Shown piece after piece: positions 2,817 through 30,141 of a DNA stretch of 30,274 nucleotides (positions are counted from its first letter, which is position 1; every line of letters begins with the position of its first letter). The DNA lies in IMG/VR virus record IMGVR_UViG_3300008012_000105, positions 1 to 30,274 of that record; one strand, given 5' to 3'. Below the pieces are notes generated by a model, which searched no databases, was not told where the DNA came from, and was given only the letters and a program-made list of their open reading frames with translations. This stretch comes from a virus. The translations under genes and the position numbers were made by a program.

Positions 2817-3100
2817 TAGAGAACAAGTTGCTTTTTAGGAGTAATGAGAGTAGAGAAGATACCTTCATATTGCTCCGCAATATTAGGATTTGGTTCTACA
2901 ATATAGACTGTATAGTCCCGTGGAACAGTGAATTCAATATCCTCTTTGGATAGAGGAGACCATGGAGCAAATCCCAATTGTCCTTGACCTTGAGGAACTG
3001 CTACGAGAGCATTCCCAATAGTAATTTCAGTATCAGTCTCGTTAATGAGATCGCAAATTACGTCCTCGCCAGAACGAAAGCGCACAAGTTTAGTGTTCAT
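2816..3100 (-). CDS. Sm-like (LSm-fold) protein
   Basis: This 94-residue protein opens with LVRFRSGEDVICDLI, followed by a second strand (TEITIGNALVAV). That is the layout of the Sm1 motif: strand, S/T-G-E, V-I, then a hydrophobic 'nA' turn. An Sm-like protein of putative cyanophage origin has been solved structurally (PDB 3BY7, as I recall), and this looks like the same kind of protein. Such proteins form rings and often bind RNA; the role in cyanophages is unknown. AAGGAAA precedes the ATG, which overlaps the oxygenase stop by 11 bp. Family call is from pattern only. Confidence 0.62.
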   Translation of the reverse strand: MNTKLVRFRSGEDVICDLINETDTEITIGNALVAVPQGQGQLGFAPWSPLSKEDIEFTVPRDYTVYIVEPNPNIAEQYEGIFSTLITPKKQLVL

Positions 3101-3623
3101 TTATTTTCCTTAAGTGTTGTTTCCACGGAACAGAATACTGTCCCCTACTTCTATTGTAAAATAGAAATGCGTTAGCATGATACTGACCCATAAAAGGATC
3201 ACGACCATGTTCTGCCGTCATACCATTGTATATCATTGCGTCCCCATATGTCAAGGTAACGTAATTTTTATTTCCACTTGGATCTCTTACCCATATATCC
3301 CATGGTTCATCAGATGATAGATGAACCGTGATTGCTATTTCACTTTCCAATCTGTCTACATGTGGCTTGAGAATATTGCCATTGTAATACACCCTACCGT
3401 AGCAGTACGTAGGCAATACTTTTTCACCAAGTATCCAATTCACTTCTGGCGTCTTCGCAACCAGCAGTTCTAGGAAAGAAATGTATCCAAAGTTTTGGCG
3501 ATTGCCATCTTCGTTTACTTCAACATACTTTTCACAGTAGTCAATATATTCTTTCCCTAAATCCTGTGCTTCCTGTGAATCTAGGAATCCACGAAGAACC
3601 TTATAATTATTACTTAAACTCAC
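3090..3623 (-). CDS. 2-oxoglutarate/Fe(II)-dependent oxygenase (prolyl-4-hydroxylase-like)
   Basis: The 177-residue product has the iron-binding triad pattern of the double-stranded beta-helix oxygenases: H88-x-D90 (KPHVDRLES) and a distal H139 (AEHGRDPF), between strands AITVHLSS and DAMIYNG. These enzymes hydroxylate protein side chains, nucleobases or small molecules using 2-oxoglutarate and O2; several are found in each T4-like cyanophage and their substrates are unknown. The only usable start is GTG at 3623, within the end of gene 44, with no strong ribosome site, so translation is probably coupled to gp44 at a reduced level. Confidence 0.8.
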   Translation of the reverse strand: MSLSNNYKVLRGFLDSQEAQDLGKEYIDYCEKYVEVNEDGNRQNFGYISFLELLVAKTPEVNWILGEKVLPTYCYGRVYYNGNILKPHVDRLESEIAITVHLSSDEPWDIWVRDPSGNKNYVTLTYGDAMIYNGMTAEHGRDPFMGQYHANAFLFYNRSRGQYSVPWKQHLRKINEH

Positions 3624-4557
3624 AACTCATCATAACTTCAGTAAGACATGCTAGTAGGTTGATCTCTTGGTCAGCAACAAAGGCAATCTGATACTGATAC
3701 TTTGCCAGGATCAGAACAGCCTCTGGAATAGATGCGCCTTTGAGGTTTTCATACAAGCAGTCATAGATCTTACGGATGACAATGTTAGGATCATTGTCAA
3801 TGTTTTCCACAACCCACTTACGAACCGTGGTGAACTCTTTGTTCTTCATAGACCTGACTAGATCATTGACTGATACGTCAGCAATATCAACCAAGATTGA
3901 CGTATCGATCTTACCAGTAGCAGCATGACGCTGACACTCATTGATCAGACGACGCCAGTCAGGATAGTAACGTTGAATCAACTTGACAAGAATCTTGTCC
4001 TCGCACTCAACATCATTCTCCTTCAGAATTTGCTTGAGTCGCATGAAGAACTGACCCTGCAGTTCCATCTTGGCTTCGTTCTTGACACGAAAGTCCACCA
4101 CCGTGCATCGAGAATGCAGCGGTTCAATGATCTTGTTTGGGAAGTTGCAGGTGAAGATGAAGCGACAGTTGCTGTGAAACTCCTCCACCGCCGCCCTCAA
4201 GGACAGTTGCACGTCATTGGTGGTGTTGTCTGCCTCATCAATGATAACGACCTTGTGGGGCGCTCCAGAGGCGAGAGAGACGGTGCTAGCGAACTGCTTG
4301 ACCTTGTTCCGCACCGTGTCTAGGAAACGACCCTCGTCGGACCCGTTGATGACGATATAAGACGCACCAATCTCCTCACAGACTGCCCTGGCTACAGTAG
4401 TCTTACCAACACCAGCAGTACCTGCTAGCAACAGGTTTGGAATCTCACCTTGTTCTAGGAATGCCTGAAAAGATTCTTTGATATTCTTGGGCAGAATACA
4501 GTCCTGCAGTTTGCGAGGTCGATACTCTTCGACCCAAAGGAATTTTTTATTCATCAT
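3610..4557 (-). CDS. 44: Clamp loader ATPase subunit gp44
   Basis: This 315-residue AAA+ ATPase would, as in T4, form a tetramer with one gp62 and load the gp45 clamp using ATP. Walker A GTAGVGKT spans residues 46-53, Walker B VVIIDEAD 103-110, and the trans-acting Arg motif SRC is near 149-151. The N-terminal WVEEYRP is the usual clamp-loader opening. Length matches T4 gp44 (319 residues). The start is a double ATG (4557 or 4554) inside the end of the upstream gene, giving coupled translation. Confidence 0.97.
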   Translation of the reverse strand: MMNKKFLWVEEYRPRKLQDCILPKNIKESFQAFLEQGEIPNLLLAGTAGVGKTTVARAVCEEIGASYIVINGSDEGRFLDTVRNKVKQFASTVSLASGAPHKVVIIDEADNTTNDVQLSLRAAVEEFHSNCRFIFTCNFPNKIIEPLHSRCTVVDFRVKNEAKMELQGQFFMRLKQILKENDVECEDKILVKLIQRYYPDWRRLINECQRHAATGKIDTSILVDIADVSVNDLVRSMKNKEFTTVRKWVVENIDNDPNIVIRKIYDCLYENLKGASIPEAVLILAKYQYQIAFVADQEINLLACLTEVMMSCEFK

Positions 4558-5020
4558 TAAGTAATTCTACAGGCTCAAAAATTTCATCCATAGATCCATG
4601 CTTAAACACAGACTCTGGATGATTCATAATACTACCACGAAAATACTCGCCAAGTCCATCAGACTTTACGGTATAAAACATAGTTTTTTTCTTTTGTTTA
4701 CACCACTCAATAGCAAAGAGTAGTGCAGCTCCATCAATTTTACCACTAAAGTCGGCAGTAAGAGTGACAAATTTCTTTTGTTCTGTCATCAAGAACCCAA
4801 CCTTATCTGGTCGCATCCATTCTGGCAAAGTCCACTCTTTCAACCAAGCACATCCATAGCTATCACATATTGGAGGTCGTGATAGATCGTCATAGATGCC
4901 ACAACCATGTTCAACAACGTGAGGACAAGGATGCTCTGGATATACTTTATGTTCGTTGATCTTAACTGTTAAAGTTCCGCGACAACATAAAGTACATCCA
5001 CCACATTCTTTTATGTTCAT
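4547..5020 (-). CDS. YkgJ-family cysteine-cluster protein (zinc/iron-chelating domain)
   Basis: The 157-residue protein has a dense N-terminal cysteine cluster: Cys 6, 9, 12 and 13 (CGGCTLCC), then Cys 32, 40, 52 and 57. This is the signature of the YkgJ/UPF0153 family, thought to hold zinc or an iron-sulphur centre. The rest (DKVGFLMTEQKK, GAALLFAIEWCK) is a mixed alpha/beta region. It sits exactly between the sliding clamp and clamp loader genes, with its start overlapping the gp45 stop (TGATG) and its end overlapping gene 44. A link to replication is suggested only by position. Confidence 0.8.
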   Translation of the reverse strand: MNIKECGGCTLCCRGTLTVKINEHKVYPEHPCPHVVEHGCGIYDDLSRPPICDSYGCAWLKEWTLPEWMRPDKVGFLMTEQKKFVTLTADFSGKIDGAALLFAIEWCKQKKKTMFYTVKSDGLGEYFRGSIMNHPESVFKHGSMDEIFEPVELLNDE

Positions 5021-5688
5021 CAGGGTTCAAGTGCAATATAGTATTTCAATTCAATACTCTGGTGAATCCACTCCGTAATACCTCCAGAAGCAACGTTTAC
5101 TTTGTAGTTACCTGGGTGTAGACGAAGGTTCTCAACTTTCATAGAGATGTCAAACTCACCAGTGCTCTCACCACTTACAGTTTGACTGTATACATTACCA
5201 GTATCATTCTCTTTGTCACACAGATCAAGATTGATCGTACCATCAGAAGAAGCTCGGAATGCTAGATCTGGTAAATCATACACCGCAGATGCTTTCTGAA
5301 GTGCAACTAGATCTTCGTACTTAACAACAAAACTAAAGTCAGTTCCAGGAAACTTAACGGTAGTTTCTGGTGCAGAACTCAAAGTAATCTCTGGGTTTGA
5401 GAAATAATACTTTGCTGAACGACCATTACCACGAATGGTAACATAATTTTCATTGTCAAACTGTAGAGCCGCATCATCAAAGAGAGACAATCCAGCAAGA
5501 AATTGGTTCAAATCATAGATACCAAAAGTTTGAGGGAAAGCTTCTTCGCTTTTATATTCAGCAATAGCATTCTGACCAACACTAATGGTCTTGAGTACAG
5601 TGCCTTCCCGAATAAGGATAGAACTATTGATTGTGCAAAAGTTCTTGAGAATGTCGCGAGTTTGTTTAGAAAGGATCACTGTGCTCAT
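5020..5688 (-). CDS. 45: DNA polymerase sliding clamp gp45
   Basis: At 222 residues this is close to T4 gp45 (228). It starts MSTVILSKQTRDILKNF, and the alternating strand pattern (FDNENYVTIRG, AKYYFSNPEITL, FSFVVKYEDL) is typical of the two-domain T4 clamp. gp45 forms a trimeric ring that holds the polymerase and also acts as the mobile activator of late transcription together with gp55. The start overlaps the upstream DUF3310 gene (ATGA). Confidence 0.96.
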   Translation of the reverse strand: MSTVILSKQTRDILKNFCTINSSILIREGTVLKTISVGQNAIAEYKSEEAFPQTFGIYDLNQFLAGLSLFDDAALQFDNENYVTIRGNGRSAKYYFSNPEITLSSAPETTVKFPGTDFSFVVKYEDLVALQKASAVYDLPDLAFRASSDGTINLDLCDKENDTGNVYSQTVSGESTGEFDISMKVENLRLHPGNYKVNVASGGITEWIHQSIELKYYIALEP

Positions 5689-5972: not shown

Positions 5973-6142
5973 TTATCCCAGATAAAGTCAATGTCATTAT
6001 GATAGCATTCAATGATGGAACCGTCAATCTTTCTGACGAATAGAATGAGGTTTTGTCCACCAAGAATTTTAACGGTCTGCCCGTCTTTGAGGCGGGCAAG
6101 GTGACCTACGTATCCGTGAAATTCAATCTGCGGTTTCTTCAT
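5969..6142 (-). CDS. Hypothetical protein, 57 residues
   Basis: The product MKKPQIEFHGYVGHLARLKD... ends NDIDFIWDK and looks all-beta, with a KDGQTVKILGG turn resembling a small SH3/KOW-type barrel. I chose the ATG at 6142, giving a 20-bp overlap with the end of cobS; a longer frame to 6214 would run deep into cobS. Its stop overlaps the next start (ATGA). No specific function is recognised. Confidence 0.7.
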   Translation of the reverse strand: MKKPQIEFHGYVGHLARLKDGQTVKILGGQNLILFVRKIDGSIIECYHNDIDFIWDK

Positions 6143-7220
6143 TAGCGTTCTCATCGATTTTGTCGTAGAGTTCAATAAAGGAAGTCTTGGTCTCGTCATC
6201 GAAACGATTGACACAGACTTCGATTGCCTTCATGCGCTTTCCGAAGATCGAGAAAGCACGGACAATGTGGGTGAGGCGACGGGTAGAGATAACTTCATCA
6301 ATACCACCGTCATTAAAAGTTTTACGAATAACTTCTGCCCAGGTAGCAAGTTTAGCACAGAACTCATCATCTTGGCAACCCAGTTGTTCAGCAAGTTTCT
6401 CAAGAATCTTGGTCTCAACAGCGGGAGTAGGATACTCCTGCTCGAAGGTCAAAGCAAAACGCTCAAGGAATGCTTCGTTGAGAACATTGGTGCCAATGAA
6501 ACGACCGTCGTCACTACCCTTACCTTTGGTATTGGCTGTAGCGATAACATTGAAACCAGCAGCGGGTTGAACATAACGACCAGTCTTTTTCAGAAACACA
6601 CCTTTGCCTTCAAGAATGGATTGGAGACAAAGGATCTTGTTGGAAGCAAGGTCAACCTCATCGAGTAGCAAGATTGCACCTCGTTGGAGTGCTTCAATGA
6701 CAGGTCCGTTATGCCAAACAGTTGCCCCATCCACAAGGCGAAAGCCACCAATAAGATCGTCTTCATCAGTTTCAATAGTAATGTTGACACGAATCAGTTC
6801 ACGATCCAGTTGGGCACATGCTTGCTCCACAGAGAAAGTCTTACCGTTACCAGACAGACCAGTGATAAAAGTCGGGTAGAAGAGACCAGATTTGATGATC
6901 TTCTTTACGTCAGCAAAGTTCCCGAACGGGACATAAGTGTCGTCCTTGAGAGGAACGAGGTTCTGTTCTTCCCGCTCGGTAATAGCAACAGCAGGAACAG
7001 CCGCAGGAGCATTATAGGTCTGCTCAAGTTTCTCTTGAACAGTCAGATTCCAAGTACCACGGCGGACATAGAAATCACGCAGACGCTTTACCGCAGTCGG
7101 ATACGTAACTCCAAAGTGATCTGCAGCAGAACGAACAGCATCAGCATTGATGTCGTTACCATAAGTTTCGGACAGATAAGAGGTGAGTTGAGTAGTGGTC
7201 AGTTCAGAACGAGCGGGCAT
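6123..7220 (-). CDS. cobS: CobS-like AAA+ ATPase
   Basis: This 365-residue MoxR/CobS-type AAA+ protein carries Walker A GLSGNGKT (about residues 121-128), Walker B AILLLDEVDLAS, and a sensor region FNVIATANTKGKG. In bacteria CobS works with CobT and CobN to insert cobalt into the corrin ring of vitamin B12. cobS is a hallmark gene of T4-like cyanophages, and a role in B12 supply has been suggested but not shown. I prefer ATG at 7220 (MPARSELTTTQL) over 7292 because a promoter-like pair lies between them. The N-terminal 60 residues form a small helical region before the ATPase. It lies directly after the CobT-like gene. Confidence 0.92.
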   Translation of the reverse strand: MPARSELTTTQLTSYLSETYGNDINADAVRSAADHFGVTYPTAVKRLRDFYVRRGTWNLTVQEKLEQTYNAPAAVPAVAITEREEQNLVPLKDDTYVPFGNFADVKKIIKSGLFYPTFITGLSGNGKTFSVEQACAQLDRELIRVNITIETDEDDLIGGFRLVDGATVWHNGPVIEALQRGAILLLDEVDLASNKILCLQSILEGKGVFLKKTGRYVQPAAGFNVIATANTKGKGSDDGRFIGTNVLNEAFLERFALTFEQEYPTPAVETKILEKLAEQLGCQDDEFCAKLATWAEVIRKTFNDGGIDEVISTRRLTHIVRAFSIFGKRMKAIEVCVNRFDDETKTSFIELYDKIDENANEETAD

Positions 7221-7241
7221 TGGTTGGTTGCGTATGAAGTA

Positions 7242-7270
7242 ATTATAGGGCAAGGGAGTGGTGATACCAA
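7242..7270 (-). promoter_or_regulatory. Candidate sigma-70 promoter for cobS
   Basis: On the minus strand there is TTGGTA (7265-7270), a 17-bp spacer and a perfect TATAAT (7242-7247). The box lies in the 68-bp gap between the CobT-like stop and the preferred cobS ATG, about 21 bp before that ATG. The -35 matches four of six consensus bases. Confidence 0.55.
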
Positions 7271-7288
7271 CCCCGAGTGGACAGTCTG

Positions 7289-9424
7289 TCAAGCGACATA
7301 CTGGATAAAGGAGTTGAGCAGTTTCTTGTTTGTGGACTTGCTAGCAAGCATCTTCTTGAATGCTCGCGTGATCTCTGCTTTCTTGGCACCAGATTCAACT
7401 TCAAATTCAGTGTCAGCAGACAAAGAATTATTCGATAGTGCATAAAGAGCCGTGAATGATTTGGGATCAGGAATGATCGCAGACTTCTCTTTCTTCCACT
7501 GCTTTTGTACATCAGCATACTTCATGCTGTTGCCATAAACAGAAACAAAGTTAGACAGTTGTGATGCGCTACCGATACGAAAACCAAGAACATTTACACC
7601 AGGGTTACGATCTCGAACTTGCTGGATAAAGTTGTTAGTGGATACACCATAGTATTCGGTCTTGCTGTAAGTGATTCCTGTTTTGCGATCACGGAGAATG
7701 CAACTTTCAGTGCGACGAGGACGAATATAATACTCATCTTTGTACTCACTATAATACTTACGACCATAAGTGCTCATGCAAGATTCACCATCAGTCAAGA
7801 TACACACGTTAACTTTCTGAAGATCATTCTGCTTTTTAAATTGAGGAATGATGTAGTTCAGCATGACAACAGCTTCATTAAGAGGAGTGCCAGACAGACC
7901 GATACCAGGGGTAGTTTGATACGAGACGTATTGAATGTAAGCATACGCTTCGCGGAACAAGTTGTAGCACATCCGTTCATAATCTTTGGAGTTAGAACGA
8001 GAAGACACAAAGTTCATCAGATGGAACTGGTCCTTGTGCAAAAAGACTTTGTTCTCTTCACAACCCCTGCTCTCAAAATATTCATCATCATTGTGGTTAT
8101 CAACTACCTGACCATTTGCACGGCGGACAGGATAGTAGTCATTGGTAAACGCATAGACTTCAAAAGGGATCTGAACTTTCTTGCAGAAAGCAGTCATGTT
8201 TAAGACTTGCTTTACTGCTGCAAGAATATCATGTTGCATTGATCCAGACCAGTCAAGGAGGAACAACAAACCATGGTTCTTACCATCAGTCACTACAGTC
8301 ACTTTCTTGAAGATGTCTTCAGAATACTTATAAGTATGAAGCTTTGAAGTATCAAGAACACCAGTTTTAGATTCTCCAGAACGAGCATAAGCGTCAGCAG
8401 ACTTACGGCACTCAAACTCTTTAACAAGATAGTTTACCTCTTTCTGCGATTGCTTTCTGAACTCACGATAAGCATCTTGTACTTCTATGTATCCAGCAAA
8501 GTCCTCATTTCGCTCAAGAAATCCCTTGGAATAAGAATCAATCCAGTCATGAACTTCAGTCCAGTCAGCGACATAATCAGGAAGATTAACGCTGTCAGGA
8601 ATCTCGATGTAATTGTTGTTACCAGACCAGCGATCAGTAAATCCTTTTGCGTTCTCATCAAAAGCACGTTGGGTGCGAGACTCCTCTTCATCCATATGCT
8701 CACCACCTTCAGGTGCGCTGCTACCTTGCGGCACAGATTCTCCACCATCAGATTTTTCGTTTTCACTCTCACGACGCTGCGCCTCATCCAGCATCTCTTC
8801 ATGAGTCATAGTGTCACCATCAGAACCTTCAGGACTCTGACGTTGGGATTGCATCTCTTCAGGAGCAGGTTCCTGAACCTTTTCTTTCTTGCTGTAATTA
8901 TAAATGTCAACAGCAATTTGCAGGGCTTCCTCAAAAGTTTCGCAGTCATCGATGCGAGGAAGGAACTGACGCTCATCTGATTCAAAAGGAATCATGGCAG
9001 AAGCACCAATCTTATAGTTCAGATTGATACGATCAATCAAGCTGAAGGTGTTGAGATCTTCGTCAGCGATCTCAAAGAAATCTCTCTCATGCAGTTCTTT
9101 GTAACCACCAGCGAAAGAACGACGGAGACCAGGATACTTGCGCTTCATCAGCTTCTCAATGCGAGCATCCTCAACCACGTTGATGAAGTCCATAGGACAG
9201 TCAGCAACGTTCCTCCAATCTTCATTAGGGGTGAAGAGAGCGTGACCAACCTCATGCCCCACCAAGAGGTCATAGACGATGTTAGATGCCTTGTCCCAAT
9301 TAGGCAAGGTAAGCACACGGGTGTCCACATTGAACTGTGCTGTAGAACAGTTGCGGTGCTCAACAATCAGGTTCTCGGTTGCCAGCAAACGGGCAAGGTT
9401 ACCTTTGATTGCTTGGGTGGTCAT
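7289..9424 (-). CDS. CobT-like protein with HExxH motif and VWA domain
   Basis: 711 residues in three parts. The N-terminal 180 residues contain HEVGH (57-61) and a downstream NVVEDARIEKLMKRKYPG, a combination that looks like a zinc metallopeptidase (HExxH plus a later Glu). Residues about 185-252 are an acidic, Ser/Gly/Glu-rich linker, as in CobT proteins. The C-terminal half starts with KTGVLDTSKLHTYKY and has a von Willebrand A domain with MIDAS motif DWSGS at 391-395. AAA+ (CobS/MoxR) and VWA proteins usually act as pairs, and cobS follows directly. Cyanophage homologues have been called either peptidase or CobT. A terminator precedes the gene, so it has its own promoter (a TATACT box lies at 9449-9454). 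Confidence 0.85.
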   Translation of the reverse strand: MTTQAIKGNLARLLATENLIVEHRNCSTAQFNVDTRVLTLPNWDKASNIVYDLLVGHEVGHALFTPNEDWRNVADCPMDFINVVEDARIEKLMKRKYPGLRRSFAGGYKELHERDFFEIADEDLNTFSLIDRINLNYKIGASAMIPFESDERQFLPRIDDCETFEEALQIAVDIYNYSKKEKVQEPAPEEMQSQRQSPEGSDGDTMTHEEMLDEAQRRESENEKSDGGESVPQGSSAPEGGEHMDEEESRTQRAFDENAKGFTDRWSGNNNYIEIPDSVNLPDYVADWTEVHDWIDSYSKGFLERNEDFAGYIEVQDAYREFRKQSQKEVNYLVKEFECRKSADAYARSGESKTGVLDTSKLHTYKYSEDIFKKVTVVTDGKNHGLLFLLDWSGSMQHDILAAVKQVLNMTAFCKKVQIPFEVYAFTNDYYPVRRANGQVVDNHNDDEYFESRGCEENKVFLHKDQFHLMNFVSSRSNSKDYERMCYNLFREAYAYIQYVSYQTTPGIGLSGTPLNEAVVMLNYIIPQFKKQNDLQKVNVCILTDGESCMSTYGRKYYSEYKDEYYIRPRRTESCILRDRKTGITYSKTEYYGVSTNNFIQQVRDRNPGVNVLGFRIGSASQLSNFVSVYGNSMKYADVQKQWKKEKSAIIPDPKSFTALYALSNNSLSADTEFEVESGAKKAEITRAFKKMLASKSTNKKLLNSFIQYVA

Positions 9425-9459: not shown

Positions 9460-9484
9460 AAAAAGGGGAGTCCGAAGACCCCCC
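9460..9484 (-). terminator. Intrinsic terminator at the end of gene 46
   Basis: On the minus strand, GGGG-G-GTC, a TTCG loop, then GAC-T-CCCC (9465-9484, with one G-U pair) is followed by a U run (9460-9464). The stem begins within the gp46 stop codon TAG. The UUCG tetraloop is a known highly stable loop. Confidence 0.9.
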
Positions 9485-11214
9485 TATGCCGCTTCTGCAA
9501 CTGTCTCTCGGACAACAGAATAGTTTTTTACTTTCTCACATTGTAGAGTTCTATCAAACTTTCCGTCAAGATTTTCTTTGTGAGAGATCACAAACACATT
9601 AGTATCATCATCAAAATTGCGAAGGATCCATCCCAATTCACCAGTGCCATTCTGATCTAATGAGCCATCAAAGATCTCATCTAATATGAGGATGTTAGTA
9701 TCAACGCTATTCTTAAGTTTAGCAACAGCACGCCAAGTAAGCAGAAGAGCGATATCGATACGAGCTTTCTCTCCCTCGCTGAAGGATTCGTAAGAGAACG
9801 TATCCCTGTATCTTGACTTGATTGTTTCTTCAAAGTTCTCGTCCAGCGCAAAGTTGACATAGAAGTCCATGTTCTGAAGGTACTGGTTGATGAGTTTGTT
9901 CATCACGGGAAGATATCTCTTGATGATCCTGGTTTTGATTCCATTATCTTTCAAGAGTTGTGACGCTGCAAGAAGTGTGTCACGTTCTTCTTTGATCTCG
10001 GAGATCTGTTTCTTCAGTTTCAGGTATTCTTCCTGCAAGTATTTTAACTTCTCGTCTGCTTCTGAAGAATCTGATTTATTATTTCTTAATAATTCAATCT
10101 GATCCATCAGGTCTTTGACTTGCAACTGAATGCGTGTGATGGTAGAGTTTGCTATTGCAATATCAGAATTAACTTTGTTGATAAGTTTAGATGTTTCGAT
10201 ATATTTTGATTCTCTTTCTTCCTCAAGTTTAATAGCAATATCCATTTCATCAAAGCCCTTGTTTAGTTCTTTGATGGAGTCCATGATAGTGGTAATTCTA
10301 GCATCCTTCAACTCTTCTGTAATTGACTGACTACAAGTAGGACATGTAGAGTTGTGCATAAAAAACTCATGTTCTTTTTTATGCGTAGAAAACTTTTGTT
10401 GAATCTTCCCCTTTAAAGTGTTTAACTTTTTAAGTTTTGTTGGTGTATAAGAGTTGGTTTCTAAATCTTTAGAATATTTTTCACTTTCTACGTTAAGGTT
10501 GTTAACAATTTCAATAGTTTTTTCTTCTTCTGCTAACAAAGAAGCAATGGCATTCTGTTTTTCAACAACCGTCTCTTCGTTTTTCTTGCTGATGTGTTCG
10601 ATGTATTGTTTTTGCATCAGAATTTTTTCTTCAGCAAGATTAGATTGATAGTCAATCTGTTTCATCTCATCAGTAGACATCTTCACCTTGTCTTTCAACA
10701 CGGTGTTCATTACAGAGAAGATCTGAATGTCAAGAATGTCTTCAATGATGTCCCTACGTTGAGCGATAGGAAGACGCATGAAAGGAACAAAGGTACTACT
10801 TCCTAGTACCACAATCTGGGTAAATGATTTATAGTTCATCTTGAGAATGTTAGTCTCAAGTTGTTTTTGATAATCATTCGTCGTACTTGATTGATCAAGC
10901 ATCTGACCGTTCTGATATATCTCAAAGACACCAGGCTTAATACCACGAACTACTTTAAAGTCGTTCTTTGCAATATTAAACTCGATCTCAACCAGACAAT
11001 CCTTTTGATTGATGCTATTCACCAGCATCGGTTTGTTGATCTTACGGAAAGGTTTTCCAAAAAGTGAGAACGTCAGTGCATCTAGAATGGTAGACTTGCC
11101 TGCACCATTAGCACCAATAATTAAGTTTGTTTTTGAAGCAAGCAAATCAATTTCGGTGAATACGTTTCCAGTGGACAGGAAATTTTTCCAACGAAGTTTT
11201 TTAAAGACAATCAT
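9484..11214 (-). CDS. 46: Recombination exonuclease ATPase subunit gp46 (Rad50-like)
   Basis: 576 residues, close to T4 gp46 (560). The ABC/SMC-type head is split: Walker A GANGAGKST at 34-42 near the N-terminus, and signature SFSEGEKARIDIALL plus Walker B ILILDEIFDGSLD near the C-terminus. Between lies a long coiled coil with a zinc hook CPTC at 291-294. With gp47 it forms the Mre11/Rad50-type complex that resects double-strand ends for recombination-dependent replication and host DNA breakdown. Its start overlaps the DUF3110 gene (ATGA). Confidence 0.97.
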   Translation of the reverse strand: MIVFKKLRWKNFLSTGNVFTEIDLLASKTNLIIGANGAGKSTILDALTFSLFGKPFRKINKPMLVNSINQKDCLVEIEFNIAKNDFKVVRGIKPGVFEIYQNGQMLDQSSTTNDYQKQLETNILKMNYKSFTQIVVLGSSTFVPFMRLPIAQRRDIIEDILDIQIFSVMNTVLKDKVKMSTDEMKQIDYQSNLAEEKILMQKQYIEHISKKNEETVVEKQNAIASLLAEEEKTIEIVNNLNVESEKYSKDLETNSYTPTKLKKLNTLKGKIQQKFSTHKKEHEFFMHNSTCPTCSQSITEELKDARITTIMDSIKELNKGFDEMDIAIKLEEERESKYIETSKLINKVNSDIAIANSTITRIQLQVKDLMDQIELLRNNKSDSSEADEKLKYLQEEYLKLKKQISEIKEERDTLLAASQLLKDNGIKTRIIKRYLPVMNKLINQYLQNMDFYVNFALDENFEETIKSRYRDTFSYESFSEGEKARIDIALLLTWRAVAKLKNSVDTNILILDEIFDGSLDQNGTGELGWILRNFDDDTNVFVISHKENLDGKFDRTLQCEKVKNYSVVRETVAEAA

Positions 11215-11489
11215 TCTAGATCAATCGGCGGAATAATAAAATCATCAACGGTTATTATAGCATACCTATGGTTTCTTTGTTCACAGGCTGCAACAATAAG
11301 TTCTCTTTCTATTTCAACTAACTGCAGATTTGGTCCCTCTTCATCTTCTATAAGTTGTATAGCATAGCGTTCCGCATCATCTTGACACTCAAAAATAGGA
11401 ACTATTTTTTCTCCAGTATCCTTATCTATGAGAGAAAACACACCCTCTGGGTGGTCAACAAGTGTCAAGATGTACGTAGCGTCTGTCAT
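11211..11489 (-). CDS. DUF3110-like protein
   Basis: This 92-residue protein has strands at the N-terminus (YILTLVDHPEGVFSLID) followed by IFECQDDAERYAIQLIEDE and ELIVAACEQRNHRYAII. That layout matches DUF3110, a small family mostly known from cyanobacteria (a 'DDA-RYA-LLE' helix followed by 'I-EFC'). It is coupled on both sides (ATGA) and lies between the two subunits of the gp46/gp47 nuclease. The function is unknown, and the gene may have been acquired from the host. Confidence 0.72.
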   Translation of the reverse strand: MTDATYILTLVDHPEGVFSLIDKDTGEKIVPIFECQDDAERYAIQLIEDEEGPNLQLVEIERELIVAACEQRNHRYAIITVDDFIIPPIDLE

Positions 11490-12529
11490 ACCATCTCACA
11501 GCTTTCAATATATAGGTTCCTCATGAGTTTTTTGAGTGAGGTTTTGTCTACGGATATCTCCACCTCATCGATATATTCGTTCAGAAGTGTGAGGGTATCT
11601 TTCACTTCAATGTCAGCATCATCGGTTTGATCCTCACTCACAAGAGTCTCAACAACTTTGATATCATGTACACCAGCAGCATACAAAGAATCAATCATTG
11701 TTTCGAACCTGTAGTAGTCTCTCTTTTCTTCTACAACTACTTTAACAAAAGTATCTTTGTACTCGGTGTAATCAAGAACCATGTCTTTATCTACATCATT
11801 GTAGTACACCTTCTTGAAAATCTCATATGGATTCTTGACTCTAGTCAGTCTATTTGTTTTGGGTTGCCACAGATGAAATCCACGCTCATCCTTGTAATCA
11901 TTCCAGAACATCTGGTAAGGATTACCTAGGTATGTGATGTTGCCCTTGCTTGACTTGTGATGATAGTGACCAGAGAAGACTTGTTTGAAGTCCTTATAGA
12001 TAGAAGGATCATGTCCGTGCTCCATCTTAAGCCCAGGTGTTACTTCGAAACCGTCAAGTTCAAGGTGTCCCATGACAATTTGTGCATCTGTTTGTTGGAG
12101 ATGTTCCATCGTCGATGCTTCGTTCTCCCTGTTGATCCAAGGGACAAAACAAACTTTCGTACCCTCAATAGTAACAGTAGTAACCTCATCGTAGACACGA
12201 ATATTATCATAGTCACCTAGCAATAAGTCAGGAGAGTTGATGGAGTTTGTGTTCTTGTAGTACACACAGTGGTTGCCCAAGATTGTATGCACTGTGATGC
12301 CCATTTCATTCAGGCGATCAAAGTAGTGAGTACGAACACGATTCCATACATTAAAGTCAATACCTTTACGGTTGTCAAATGTGTCGCCCAGGTCGATGAT
12401 CTCTTTGATACCTTTCTTCTCTAGCGTAGGAAAGAAGACATCATCATAGAACTTTTGGAAGTAATTCCAAAATGCCAGACTACCCTTACGACCGTCTAGA
12501 TGTTGATCAGTAATCAATGCTACAGTCAT
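11486..12529 (-). CDS. 47: Recombination endonuclease subunit gp47 (Mre11-like)
   Basis: 347 residues (T4 gp47 is 339). The metallophosphoesterase motifs are in order: D8-Q-H10 (ITDQHLDG), GDTFDNR (D49), GNH (85-87), and later GHLELDG and GHYHHK. This is the nuclease partner of gp46. The start overlaps the gp55 stop (ATGA), placing recombination and late transcription in one message. Confidence 0.97.
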   Translation of the reverse strand: MTVALITDQHLDGRKGSLAFWNYFQKFYDDVFFPTLEKKGIKEIIDLGDTFDNRKGIDFNVWNRVRTHYFDRLNEMGITVHTILGNHCVYYKNTNSINSPDLLLGDYDNIRVYDEVTTVTIEGTKVCFVPWINRENEASTMEHLQQTDAQIVMGHLELDGFEVTPGLKMEHGHDPSIYKDFKQVFSGHYHHKSSKGNITYLGNPYQMFWNDYKDERGFHLWQPKTNRLTRVKNPYEIFKKVYYNDVDKDMVLDYTEYKDTFVKVVVEEKRDYYRFETMIDSLYAAGVHDIKVVETLVSEDQTDDADIEVKDTLTLLNEYIDEVEISVDKTSLKKLMRNLYIESCEMV

Positions 12530-13017
12530 CGGTTCATTCTTGTCTCAATGTTTTCTTTGATGCTACCCATGTCGGCATAAGAAGCATTCATACCAGCCAT
12601 ATCACCTTCGTATGTTTCTGTGTACATAACTTCTTGGTGACCAGATCTCTCAAGAATTTTACTCTTAATTTCTAGTTGGCGTTTTTCTTTCTGAATGCGG
12701 CGAAGGAAAGCGTAGTAGATAATTTGTGTGAAGTAGGCAAAAGGATTGGAAGACTTCTCTGGATTAAAATTGTCAATATACTGTAGGCAATTTTCAATGC
12801 CGTCACAGATCATGTCCTCTCGGAACATGTAGTTAACAAAGTTTGGTTTGTAAGACAGGTGTGTAGCAATCTTCAGGAAACATTCACCAATGTAATTTGG
12901 TACAAGCGGTTTCGATTTACCTTTCTTTTTAGCAAGCTCGACCTTACGTTTATATTCCACTATTGCTTCGAGGAACTCTTTGTTATTAACGTAGTATTCG
13001 GTCTTTGCCTTTGCCAT
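12526..13017 (-). CDS. 55: Late-transcription sigma factor gp55
   Basis: The 163-residue product (T4 gp55 is 185) has the T4-family core MFREDMICDGIENCLQYIDN, followed by NPEKSSNPFAYFTQIIYYAFLRRI, here split for length: NPFAYFTQI then YYAFLRRIQKE. This resembles sigma-70 region 2, which melts the promoter -10. gp55 directs host RNA polymerase to the phage late boxes, assisted in T4 by gp33 and gp45. It is the first gene after a strong host-type promoter, consistent with early or middle expression. Confidence 0.94.
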   Translation of the reverse strand: MAKAKTEYYVNNKEFLEAIVEYKRKVELAKKKGKSKPLVPNYIGECFLKIATHLSYKPNFVNYMFREDMICDGIENCLQYIDNFNPEKSSNPFAYFTQIIYYAFLRRIQKEKRQLEIKSKILERSGHQEVMYTETYEGDMAGMNASYADMGSIKENIETRMNR

Positions 13018-28531: not shown

Positions 28532-28689
28532 TTGTGGCTCCTATGAAAAGGTTCCCAGTGCTCCCATCTATATTTATGAACTGCCCACATTCCTAGGATG
28601 GGAACAAAGACTAAAGCAAAAGACATTACTGCTAGAGCAAGTGGATTCTCCATAGTATGTCTAACGAATAATTGTACGTGATGTATCAT
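28528..28689 (-). CDS. Small membrane protein, 53 residues
   Basis: Starts MIHHVQLFVRHTMENP at the ATG overlapping the zwf stop (ATGA); a longer reading to 28779 would lie within zwf. There is one transmembrane segment (LALAVMSFALVFVPILGMWA) and a His/Trp-rich tail (YRWEHWEPFHRSHK). The stop overlaps the next start. No family is recognised. Confidence 0.65.
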   Translation of the reverse strand: MIHHVQLFVRHTMENPLALAVMSFALVFVPILGMWAVHKYRWEHWEPFHRSHK

Positions 28690-30059
28690 GCTGGATAATC
28701 CCAAACAGTTATCATGTGTGTTTTGTACTCTGGACCCCATCCACCACAGTAGATGTAAGGGACAGTACGAATTGGACAACTATCACCAGTACACAGAAGG
28801 TCATCTACAATCCTCCAACTTTCCATAACTTCATCGACATGGACAAAGTGCGATTGGTCTCCATTTATAGCATCATAGAGGAGTTTTTCATATCCGTCGA
28901 TTGCTCTATCTTGGGGGTAGTCGTGAGTGAGTGTAGCCAATTCAAGATTATCATTGAGCCCAGGAGATTTAATATCCATCCTAATGTCAAGATGAGGATT
29001 AGGCTGTAGACGCATGACAATACGATCGTTGATTTCACCTTCATAGAGTTTTAGCGGTGGTGCTTTAAGTTTGATTACTACCTCCACACATTGGTATGGT
29101 AGTTTCTTTCCTGTCATTACGTTAAAAGGAACTCCTTCCCAACGCCAGTTATCGACGAATAAAGTACCAGCAAAATAGGTAGGAGTACCACTGTTAGGAT
29201 CAACGCCCTCTTCGTTACGGTAGCCATCGTATTGTCCAAGAATAATGTTCTCTGATAGTCTAGTAGCGGATAAAACTTTTGTCTTCTCTCTTCTGACTTC
29301 TTTTGCTGACATTTTGCTTGGAGGATCCATAGCAATCAATGCCAGAACTTGCAGAATATGATTCTGTAGCATATCTCTGACAGCACCAGCGGTCTCATAA
29401 TACTGGGCACGACCCTCACAACCAATGGTCTCCGAAGCAAAGATCTGCACTTCTTCTACATACTGGCGATTCCAGAGTGGTTCAAGAAGAATATTACTAA
29501 ACCGTGTAGCAAGAATATTATTGACAGTATCTTTGCCGAGATAATGGTCAATGCGATATACTTGTTTCTCGCGTAGACATCTAGCAACCACAGTTGATAG
29601 ATGATCAGCAGATTTATAATCGTGCCCAAAGGGTTTCTCAATAACAACACGCGAGAGTTCTGGGTTGTTGAGGAGTCCTGCTTCTTTGAGATTGATGATA
29701 GCATTCTCATATCGTTCTGGGGGTACGGATAAGAAGTAAGTTGAATCATCTGCATCTGGTAGATTTTTCAATGACTCTGGATTATCCAGATCAGTGCTAA
29801 TCCAATCCAGACGATGGAGAAAGTCTTCAGGATACTCTCCCAAAGATTCCACCCATGTTTGTTTAGCAATTGCTCTGCGAGATGTCCCTACAATCACAAG
29901 ATTAATTGGAAGTAAATCTTTCTGATGTAGTTTATACAGAGCAGGGATTAGTTTTTTCTTTGCCAGATCTCCAGTAGCACCGAAGATTACTATCTGGTAA
30001 GTAAGTATTTCAGTGTGCGGTTCCGTTTCCATCATAGTCGTCCGAGTCGTAGTAGTCAT
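28686..30059 (-). CDS. zwf: Glucose-6-phosphate dehydrogenase
   Basis: 457 residues. It oxidises glucose-6-phosphate to 6-phosphogluconolactone with NADP+, the first step of the oxidative pentose phosphate pathway. The NADP site is IVIFGATGDLAKKK (G27 onwards), the substrate site RIDHYLGK lies at about 169-176, and VIEKPFGHD just before it. Cyanophages carry pentose phosphate genes, which are thought to raise NADPH and pentose supply for nucleotide synthesis during infection. I chose the ATG at 30059 (AAAAGGTGATA upstream); 30035 or 30032 are alternatives. The first 50 bp overlap a small membrane ORF. Confidence 0.96.
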   Translation of the reverse strand: MTTTTRTTMMETEPHTEILTYQIVIFGATGDLAKKKLIPALYKLHQKDLLPINLVIVGTSRRAIAKQTWVESLGEYPEDFLHRLDWISTDLDNPESLKNLPDADDSTYFLSVPPERYENAIINLKEAGLLNNPELSRVVIEKPFGHDYKSADHLSTVVARCLREKQVYRIDHYLGKDTVNNILATRFSNILLEPLWNRQYVEEVQIFASETIGCEGRAQYYETAGAVRDMLQNHILQVLALIAMDPPSKMSAKEVRREKTKVLSATRLSENIILGQYDGYRNEEGVDPNSGTPTYFAGTLFVDNWRWEGVPFNVMTGKKLPYQCVEVVIKLKAPPLKLYEGEINDRIVMRLQPNPHLDIRMDIKSPGLNDNLELATLTHDYPQDRAIDGYEKLLYDAINGDQSHFVHVDEVMESWRIVDDLLCTGDSCPIRTVPYIYCGGWGPEYKTHMITVWDYPA

Positions 30060-30141
30060 TATCACCTTTTCGTATCCCGAAATATACCGTGGCCAGTACA
30101 AACGGTATTGCAATCCATTTGAGTGCTTCACCTAACATCAT
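30010..30141 (-). CDS. Small membrane protein between gnd and zwf, 42-43 residues
   Basis: Two adjacent ATGs (30141, 30138) start MLGEALKWIAIPFVLATVYF, a single transmembrane helix. A basic IRK and an acidic, Tyr-rich tail follow (DNDYYDSDDYDGNG). The start overlaps the gnd stop by up to 14 bp and the 3' part overlaps zwf by 50 bp in another frame. It is too short for standard gene finding, but the membrane segment plus coupling makes it convincing. Confidence 0.7.
   Translation of the reverse strand: MMLGEALKWIAIPFVLATVYFGIRKGDNDYYDSDDYDGNGTAH

Follow-up and report, generated by a model that had tools for sequence, protein, structure and literature searches.

We analysed a 30,274-base fragment from a virus of ocean cyanobacteria, IMG/VR record IMGVR_UViG_3300008012_000105 (hereafter called the window), which carries a gene for a CobT-like protein next to a gene for a CobS-like AAA+ ATPase. 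Between positions 7289 and 9424 the minus strand is a single open frame of 711 residues, with many stops on the plus strand, and the entire product (residues 1-711) matches the PHROG 459 family, named 'peptidase', with an E-value of 2.5e-274. A preliminary description had noted three motifs in this protein, HEVGH, NVVEDARIE and DWSGS, and had proposed a zinc peptidase site fused to a VWA domain. Translation of the minus strand confirmed all three, at residues 57-61, 82-90 and 391-395, respectively. The two genes and the features of the CobT-like protein are as follows, all on the minus strand.

7289-9424: CobT-like gene, 711 amino acids, with a zincin-like N-domain, an acidic linker and a VWA domain (translation, PHROG 459 and conservation over 82 sequences)
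8870-9424: zincin-like N-terminal domain, residues 1-185 (AlphaFold2 model; the nearest PDB folds are minimal zinc metallopeptidases)
9242-9256: HEVGH, residues 57-61 (invariance of H57, E58 and H61)
9155-9181: second-helix motif NVVEDARIE, residues 82-90, with E85 or D86 as candidate third metal ligand (invariance; co-loss for D86, ArdC spacing for E85)
8621-8878: acidic linker modelled with low confidence, residues about 183-268 (predicted local distance difference test score, pLDDT, under 50 in the full-length model)
7421-8287: VWA domain, residues about 380-668 (best matches to the NorD VWA and midasin MIDAS domains)
8240-8254: MIDAS motif DWSGS, residues 391-395, completed by T513 and D545 (invariance)
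6123-7292: partner gene for a CobS/MoxR-like AAA+ ATPase (AAA_5, PHROG 249 and PD_CobS)

The partner frame starts with TTG and overlaps the cobT stop. The true cobS start is probably the ATG at residue 24, and the match to PHROG 249 begins at residue 26 (E-value 1.1e-140).

Shuffling the window protein yielded an HExxH in 358 of 20,000 shuffles. Taken alone, the motif is thus no more than a hint; what makes it significant is its conservation. H57, E58, H61, N82, E85, D86, R88 and E90 are invariant in 82/82 sequences, namely the window and 81 loci that include the window itself (L081), making 81 independent sequences, and the search patterns behind these loci carried no HExxH. The motif is therefore conserved among the cyanophage homologues, a point that the preliminary description had left as a possible weakness. 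Among 16 very divergent N-domains (15-39% identity to the first row of their alignment), both His residues, the Glu of HExxH, N82 and D86 are found in all 16, and E85 in at least 90%, the exception being phage ICP2. Of 18 more distant relatives, which were retrieved after tblastn searches of phage and plasmid records, 15 harbour HExxH; the three without it come from Pseudomonas phage nickie, Stenotrophomonas phage BUCTxx99 and an Acinetobacter plasmid. E58 is also present in all 44 non-redundant relatives selected for having H57 and H61, a set that includes loci from bacterial genomes. Thirty such loci were found with patterns containing HEV(G/A)H or N..ED, which makes their HExxH partly circular, and they supply 25 of the 65 rows of the N-domain alignment and also enter the 44-sequence set; the less biased counts are those of the close (82/82) and distant (15/18) relatives. 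The PHROG 459 family is matched in 463 phage records, and four of seven scans of viral contigs gave zero or one relative.

Residues 1-185 were modelled by AlphaFold2 from 65 family sequences, with a pLDDT of 87.6 and a predicted template modelling score (pTM) of 0.83. The model comprises a helix, three strands, a helix that bears HExxH (residues 48-64) and an acidic helix (residues 78-96). The best PDB folds are abylysin, jannalysin and selecase, followed by ArdC. In Foldseek searches of the PDB, minigluzincins or selecase account for the top three rows and for 6 of the top 11, and ArdC for two further rows of the 11. The Foldseek match to 4jix_B has a probability of 1.00 and an E-value of 0.17, and the best VIA-align score, Z 7.4 over 98 residues, was obtained with jannalysin. 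By our own classification of entry titles and identities, 44 of 50 VIA rows are zinc metallopeptidases or inactive relatives of these, including Wss1, IrrE/PprI, BlaR1, M1, M4 and M32; the count leaves out 9dt5_C, 6row, 3iuk and the Mycobacterium tuberculosis regulators 6cyj, 6cyy and 6d2s. A Z-score below 8 is weak in isolation, and the argument is carried by the agreement of the rows together with HExxH. By helix position in the model, the HExxH helix and the next helix with E85 and D86 adopt the zincin layout, which does not bear out the wide separation of the three residues that the preliminary description had named as a refutation. A zincin-like HExxH N-domain is thus supported by conservation and fold matches, proteolysis itself remaining putative.

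Other searches with the N-domain gave the following results. The protein alone, used as a sequence query against the PDB, detected no relative. A profile search of the PDB with the N-domain family retrieved only the anti-CRISPR protein AcrIIA26 (9zq6_B, E-value 0.0013), over the NxxEDxxIE helix (residues about 75-115); the AcrIIA26 paper reports a novel fold, and the match may be a chance or borrowed helix. Membership of the DUF2201_N family of putative metallopeptidases fused to VWA domains was rejected, as PF13203 had no match in the window. Neither DUF2201 nor the N-domain of NorD was among the N-domain fold matches shown, which excludes nothing. A comparison of the N-domain with predicted viral structures retrieved phage 'CobT' and VWA proteins, including two from haloarchaeal tailed viruses.

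The preliminary description had designated E85 as the third metal ligand. In a set of 62 non-redundant N-domains, 44 have HxxxH and 18 do not; D86 occurs in all of the 44 but in just 2 of the 18, whereas E85 occurs in 43 of the 44 and in all of the 18. Because D86 was lost together with HxxxH while E85 was kept, the sequences favour D86 as the third ligand and a structural role for E85, and the assignment of E85 is not supported as it was stated. Of the 18 rows without HxxxH, 15 belong to the authentic CobT lineage, and the choice between the two residues rests on about four loss events, with D86 lost in three and E85 in none; the histidine columns are gaps in 6-8 of the 18 rows, and the lack of HExxH was judged from the sequences themselves. 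A counter-argument comes from ArdC, whose site is described as HE202xxH plus E229 (PMC7213743): the spacing between H205 and E229, derived from these positions, is 24, the same as between H61 and E85. At E85 the window reads E85-D-A-R88, which departs from the strict gluzincin motif given in the same paper, (E,H)xx(A,F,T,S,G). Position 88 varies in the 44 relatives with HxxxH (the six commonest residues being R in 19, F in 13, Y in 4, M in 3, W in 2 and N in 1), and the Phe of 13 of them fits the motif.

The C-terminal part of the protein could be assigned from a full-length model, whose overall pTM is poor (0.54) and whose linker has a pLDDT under 50. Its best matches are the VWA domain of NorD (9qhd_G, Z 14.1 over 207 residues, 3.6 A), followed by the MIDAS domain of midasin (8ql1_C, Z 13.6; 6qtb_A, Z 13.0), with generic VWA domains at Z 11.8 or less. 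D391, S393, S395, T513 and D545, which form the D-x-S-x-S...T...D pattern of a MIDAS, are invariant in 27/27 sequences. The partner ATPase is of the MoxR type, scoring 67.2 bits with AAA_5 against a cut-off of 22, and falls far short of the PD_CobS equivalog TIGR01650 (71.2 bits for a cut-off of 558.55). An AAA+ gene lies within 1.6 kb on the same strand in 162 of 183 loci. Both the MIDAS-containing VWA domain and the adjoining CobS-like ATPase that the preliminary description had recognized are therefore borne out.

In IncC-type and other plasmids (L090 1516-4674, L099 2645-6082 and L100 1062-4276), the gene for the HExxH-VWA protein is next to one for a DUF3150 protein (in L090, PF11348 scores 298.7 bits), and the stretches retrieved for these three loci show no MoxR gene; these loci perhaps represent a variant with another partner. 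In Pseudoalteromonas phage vB_Psh_XG4 (L097 2851-5108), the VWA-type part and the N-domain part, the latter with HEVSH, are in two frames, owing to a split gene or to a sequencing error.

The contrast that the preliminary description implied between this protein and the cobaltochelatase subunit CobT is not a clean one in our comparisons. The window protein scores 9.4 bits with the Pfam CobT model PF06213, under its cut-off of 26.1, and PF11775 was not reported for it in the Pfam scan. Nevertheless, eight CobT-like proteins were scanned, and three HExxH proteins exceed the PF06213 cut-off (95.2, 57.5 and 32.6 bits), as does the chelatase control. These include the proteins of the coliphage-plasmid Cyrano (95.2 bits with the N-terminal CobT model, 275.9 with the VWA model) and of Roseobacter phage CRP-810 (57.5 and 136.1 bits, respectively). 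Pfam CobT is matched by 28 of 65 family members with E-values of at most 0.1, and 19 of 20 genomes carrying the element have a CobT hit over the cut-off, which in several of them is the HExxH protein itself. Between the HExxH N-domains and those of ten authentic CobT proteins, two of which are represented by their second half only, HHalign gave an alignment of 122 columns with a probability of 95.8 and an E-value of 7.4e-9. When run over a sample of 289 genomes from the class of the alphaproteobacterium G001, the HExxH N-domain profile matched nine, two with HExxH and seven with chelatase-type CobT devoid of it, as judged by eye. Because of this homology and these profile matches, phage and chelatase N-domains are one family, of which the chelatase copy is devoid of the metal site.

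In a tree of 42 partner CobS sequences, the HExxH label needs four changes, at least three of them forced by well-supported branches. The seven authentic CobS rows form a clade whose sister group comprises two marine phage CobS, both partnered by a CobT with HExxH (support 98/98), in a tree that is unrooted and has long branches. We prefer loss of the site over gain, because a zincin scaffold is unlikely to have predated its motif. We tentatively suggest, as a scenario that we hold with somewhat less than even confidence, that a MoxR-VWA-metallopeptidase machine of phages and plasmids gave rise to the CobST of aerobic B12 synthesis, which lost the metal site, CobT thus being a retired protease subunit, and that the ancestral machine still runs in many mobile elements. 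We observed, separately, that the Cyrano CobT-like gene (L089 2965-5073) is annotated as a dimethylbenzimidazole phosphoribosyltransferase, presumably a name collision with an unrelated enzyme also named CobT. In the control genome of Caulobacter vibrioides, the CobT family has matches and the CobN family has none; a cellular CobT without CobN would suit a role outside cobalt chelation in certain bacteria as well.

The genes that surround the pair in the window, all on the minus strand, are the following.

9484-11214: gp46 recombination nuclease gene, upstream of cobT (PHROGs 77 and 100 for gp46 and gp47)
11486-12529: gp47 recombination nuclease gene, upstream of cobT (same PHROGs)
12526-13017: late-transcription sigma factor, gp55-like (PHROG 234)
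3610-4557: clamp loader gene, downstream of cobS (PHROGs 168 and 223 for loader and clamp)
5020-5688: sliding clamp gene, downstream of cobS (same PHROGs)

UvsW- and UvsY-like genes are also found upstream, and the downstream region encodes both clamp-loader subunits and a RegA-like translation repressor. Synechococcus phage S-CAM3, the nearest annotated relative, has the identical order gp47-x-gp46-'peptidase'-'CobS'-clamp. In 15 of 17 annotated relatives, counted by eye from annotation tables with the chelatase locus L088 and the unannotated L097 excluded, genes for replication, recombination, repair or late transcription are at most a few kilobases away, and no B12 gene besides cobS and cobT was seen near any of the 17.

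Among characterized systems, NorQ/NorD (PMC13036017, PMC9976466) resembles the window pair in its MoxR AAA+ protein, its VWA co-factor with an N-domain and a long flexible linker, and it provides the best PDB match for the VWA domain; it differs in its target, the membrane nitric oxide reductase, and HExxH is not mentioned in the available NorQD text. A finger of the NorD VWA domain enters the AAA+ pore, the N-domain binds AAA+ subunits of the ring, and the linker is twisted and stretched (PMC13036017). The N-domains of MoxR-associated VWA proteins are not conserved and have been suggested to determine target specificity (PMC9976466). Minigluzincins (jannalysin and abylysin), selecase, ArdC, Wss1 and IrrE/PprI rank among the fold matches of the N-domain and resemble its model in the layout of an HExxH helix and an acidic helix; they have no VWA fusion, and the literal gluzincin motif is missing at E85 of the window.

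The reading that we favour, with about even confidence, is that the pair constitutes a MoxR-VWA remodelling machine with an intact zincin N-domain, whose target is probably a replication, recombination or late-transcription protein. The CobS-like MoxR-type ring would work with the CobT-like VWA co-factor, and the N-domain would be an intact zincin in which one helix bears HExxH and the following helix supplies the acidic third ligand (D86 or E85). If the pair works as NorQD does, the VWA domain would plug into the AAA+ ring, its MIDAS would grip the target, and the metallopeptidase-type domain would stand where the NorD N-domain is. ATP hydrolysis would then pull the acidic linker and remodel the target near the metal site, where the target would be cleaved or bound in a metal-dependent manner, cleavage being likely. 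The class of target is proposed from the position of the pair, flanked by gp46/47 on one side and by the sliding clamp on the other. The domain layout, the conservation, the resemblance of the N-domain to zincins, the homology to CobT and the repeated change of the site were computed; we infer ring engagement, pulling, proteolysis and the class of target. Remodelling or processing, which the preliminary description had put before cobalt chelation, is the better supported role, its proteolytic part staying putative.

Several observations weigh against this reading. The best VIA Z-score lies under the caution line of 8, the Foldseek E-values are 0.1 or worse, and no Pfam peptidase family was matched in a Pfam scan of 65 family members. 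The AAA+/VWA pair is retained in three phage or plasmid lineages devoid of HExxH, and catalysis is therefore dispensable in some of them. E58, the would-be catalytic base, persists in these three lineages (SEISK, REVST and QEVAK), and its retention without the histidines hints at a structural role. The protease site of ArdC is dispensable for its known function (PMC7213743). Finally, the neighbourhood counts have no control, and phage replication genes cluster anyway.

Part of this evidence would also suit a non-proteolytic metal site, whereby the N-domain binds or hands over a metal, or uses it in a structural or sensor capacity, while the AAA+ and VWA proteins remodel their target, as NorQD does for iron insertion. 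NorD, a metal-insertion co-factor, is the closest VWA relative (PMC13036017), and the persistence of E58 in lineages without the histidines and the dispensability of the ArdC site point in the same direction. The presence of E58 in all 44 non-redundant HxxxH relatives argues against it, as a purely structural site needs no glutamate, and the NorD N-domain does not appear among the fold matches, which excludes nothing. We regard this explanation as unlikely, albeit the most serious competitor to a processing machine.

It is improbable, in our opinion, that the pair serves virion assembly or maturation by chaperoning and trimming structural proteins. This role was proposed in 2021 for a MoxR and metallopeptidase-vWA pair of group 2.2 jumbo phages (PMC7824862), and by description that pair is like the one of the window, with a MoxR AAA+ gene adjoining that of a vWA protein whose N-terminal part is a metallopeptidase domain. 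In that classification cyanophages form group 2.1, and CobT has no occurrence in the searched text of the paper. In favour of this role, capsid and tail genes seem, from reading the open reading frames, to be present elsewhere in the same window. Against it, the pair lies between gp46/47 and the clamp and not among virion genes. Phage-plasmid and IncC-type plasmid relatives, some of the plasmids not being phage-like, are also found beside replication or recombination genes.

A helper role in cobalt chelation, in which phage CobST would join host CobN to raise cobalamin synthesis, has been put forward in PMC8651126, where the 'peptidase' name is considered mistaken and hijacking of host CobN is advocated, and it is repeated in PMC13390420. 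CobT and the window protein do share a homologous N-domain, an acidic linker, a VWA domain with MIDAS and an adjacent CobS, and the homology to CobT and CobS is real. True CobT has no HExxH, the authentic clade being devoid of the metal site that most phage copies keep, and the window proteins remain below the cut-offs for both CobS (71.2 vs 558.55 bits) and CobT (9.4 vs 26.1 bits). CobN, which the preliminary description had rightly reported as not visible, is absent from the window and from all 15 phage records searched. It is also absent from 10 of the 20 bacterial genomes carrying the element, some of which are draft or metagenome-assembled genomes. In the order of the Xenorhabdus genome G012, 99 genomes were sampled and 88 have no CobN. 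The CobN search was positive in the controls, namely Synechococcus elongatus (CobN/ChlH family) and four others. The simple cobaltochelatase reading was rejected in view of the many carriers without CobN. Hijacking of CobN is possible in cyanobacterial hosts and cannot be the general role of the family, because CobN is missing from so many carriers; we consider the helper role very unlikely. Last, a chance motif or pseudo-enzyme, with HExxH arising by coincidence on a helical scaffold, is hardly credible: the shuffles do produce the motif, but conservation of H, E, H, N and D at 15-39% identity and the zincin-type fold matches largely refute it.

The MoxR-VWA remodelling machine with its zincin N-domain is not new in all its parts. 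The architecture was already in print for other jumbo phages (PMC7824862), and the 'peptidase' label of PHROG 459 and INPHARED, which is the window protein's own family, is an annotation without a function test. What is novel is the connection with CobT, together with the site's loss in chelatases, of which we found no report in the literature searched, most subscription journals being outside its scope. The gene has been assigned in print to the cyanophage core genome (as quoted in PMC8651126), and virome studies count it as a vitamin B12 'auxiliary metabolic gene' (PMC13390420). If our reading is correct, the latter label is wrong and a conserved remodelling or processing machine has been overlooked. 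The 'peptidase' and 'CobT' annotations would be reconciled in a CobT relative with a protease-type site, and the motor of cobaltochelatase would have a testable origin, with a concrete site to mutate (H57, E58, H61, and D86 or E85).

Two further genes of the minus strand of the window are worth mentioning. The gene at 3090-3623 bears the PHROG label 'ferrochelatase', and the sequence of its product resembles a 2-oxoglutarate/Fe(II) oxygenase. The gene at 28686-30131 belongs to dehydrogenase family 4941 (E-value 4.2e-251) and reads as glucose-6-phosphate dehydrogenase-like.

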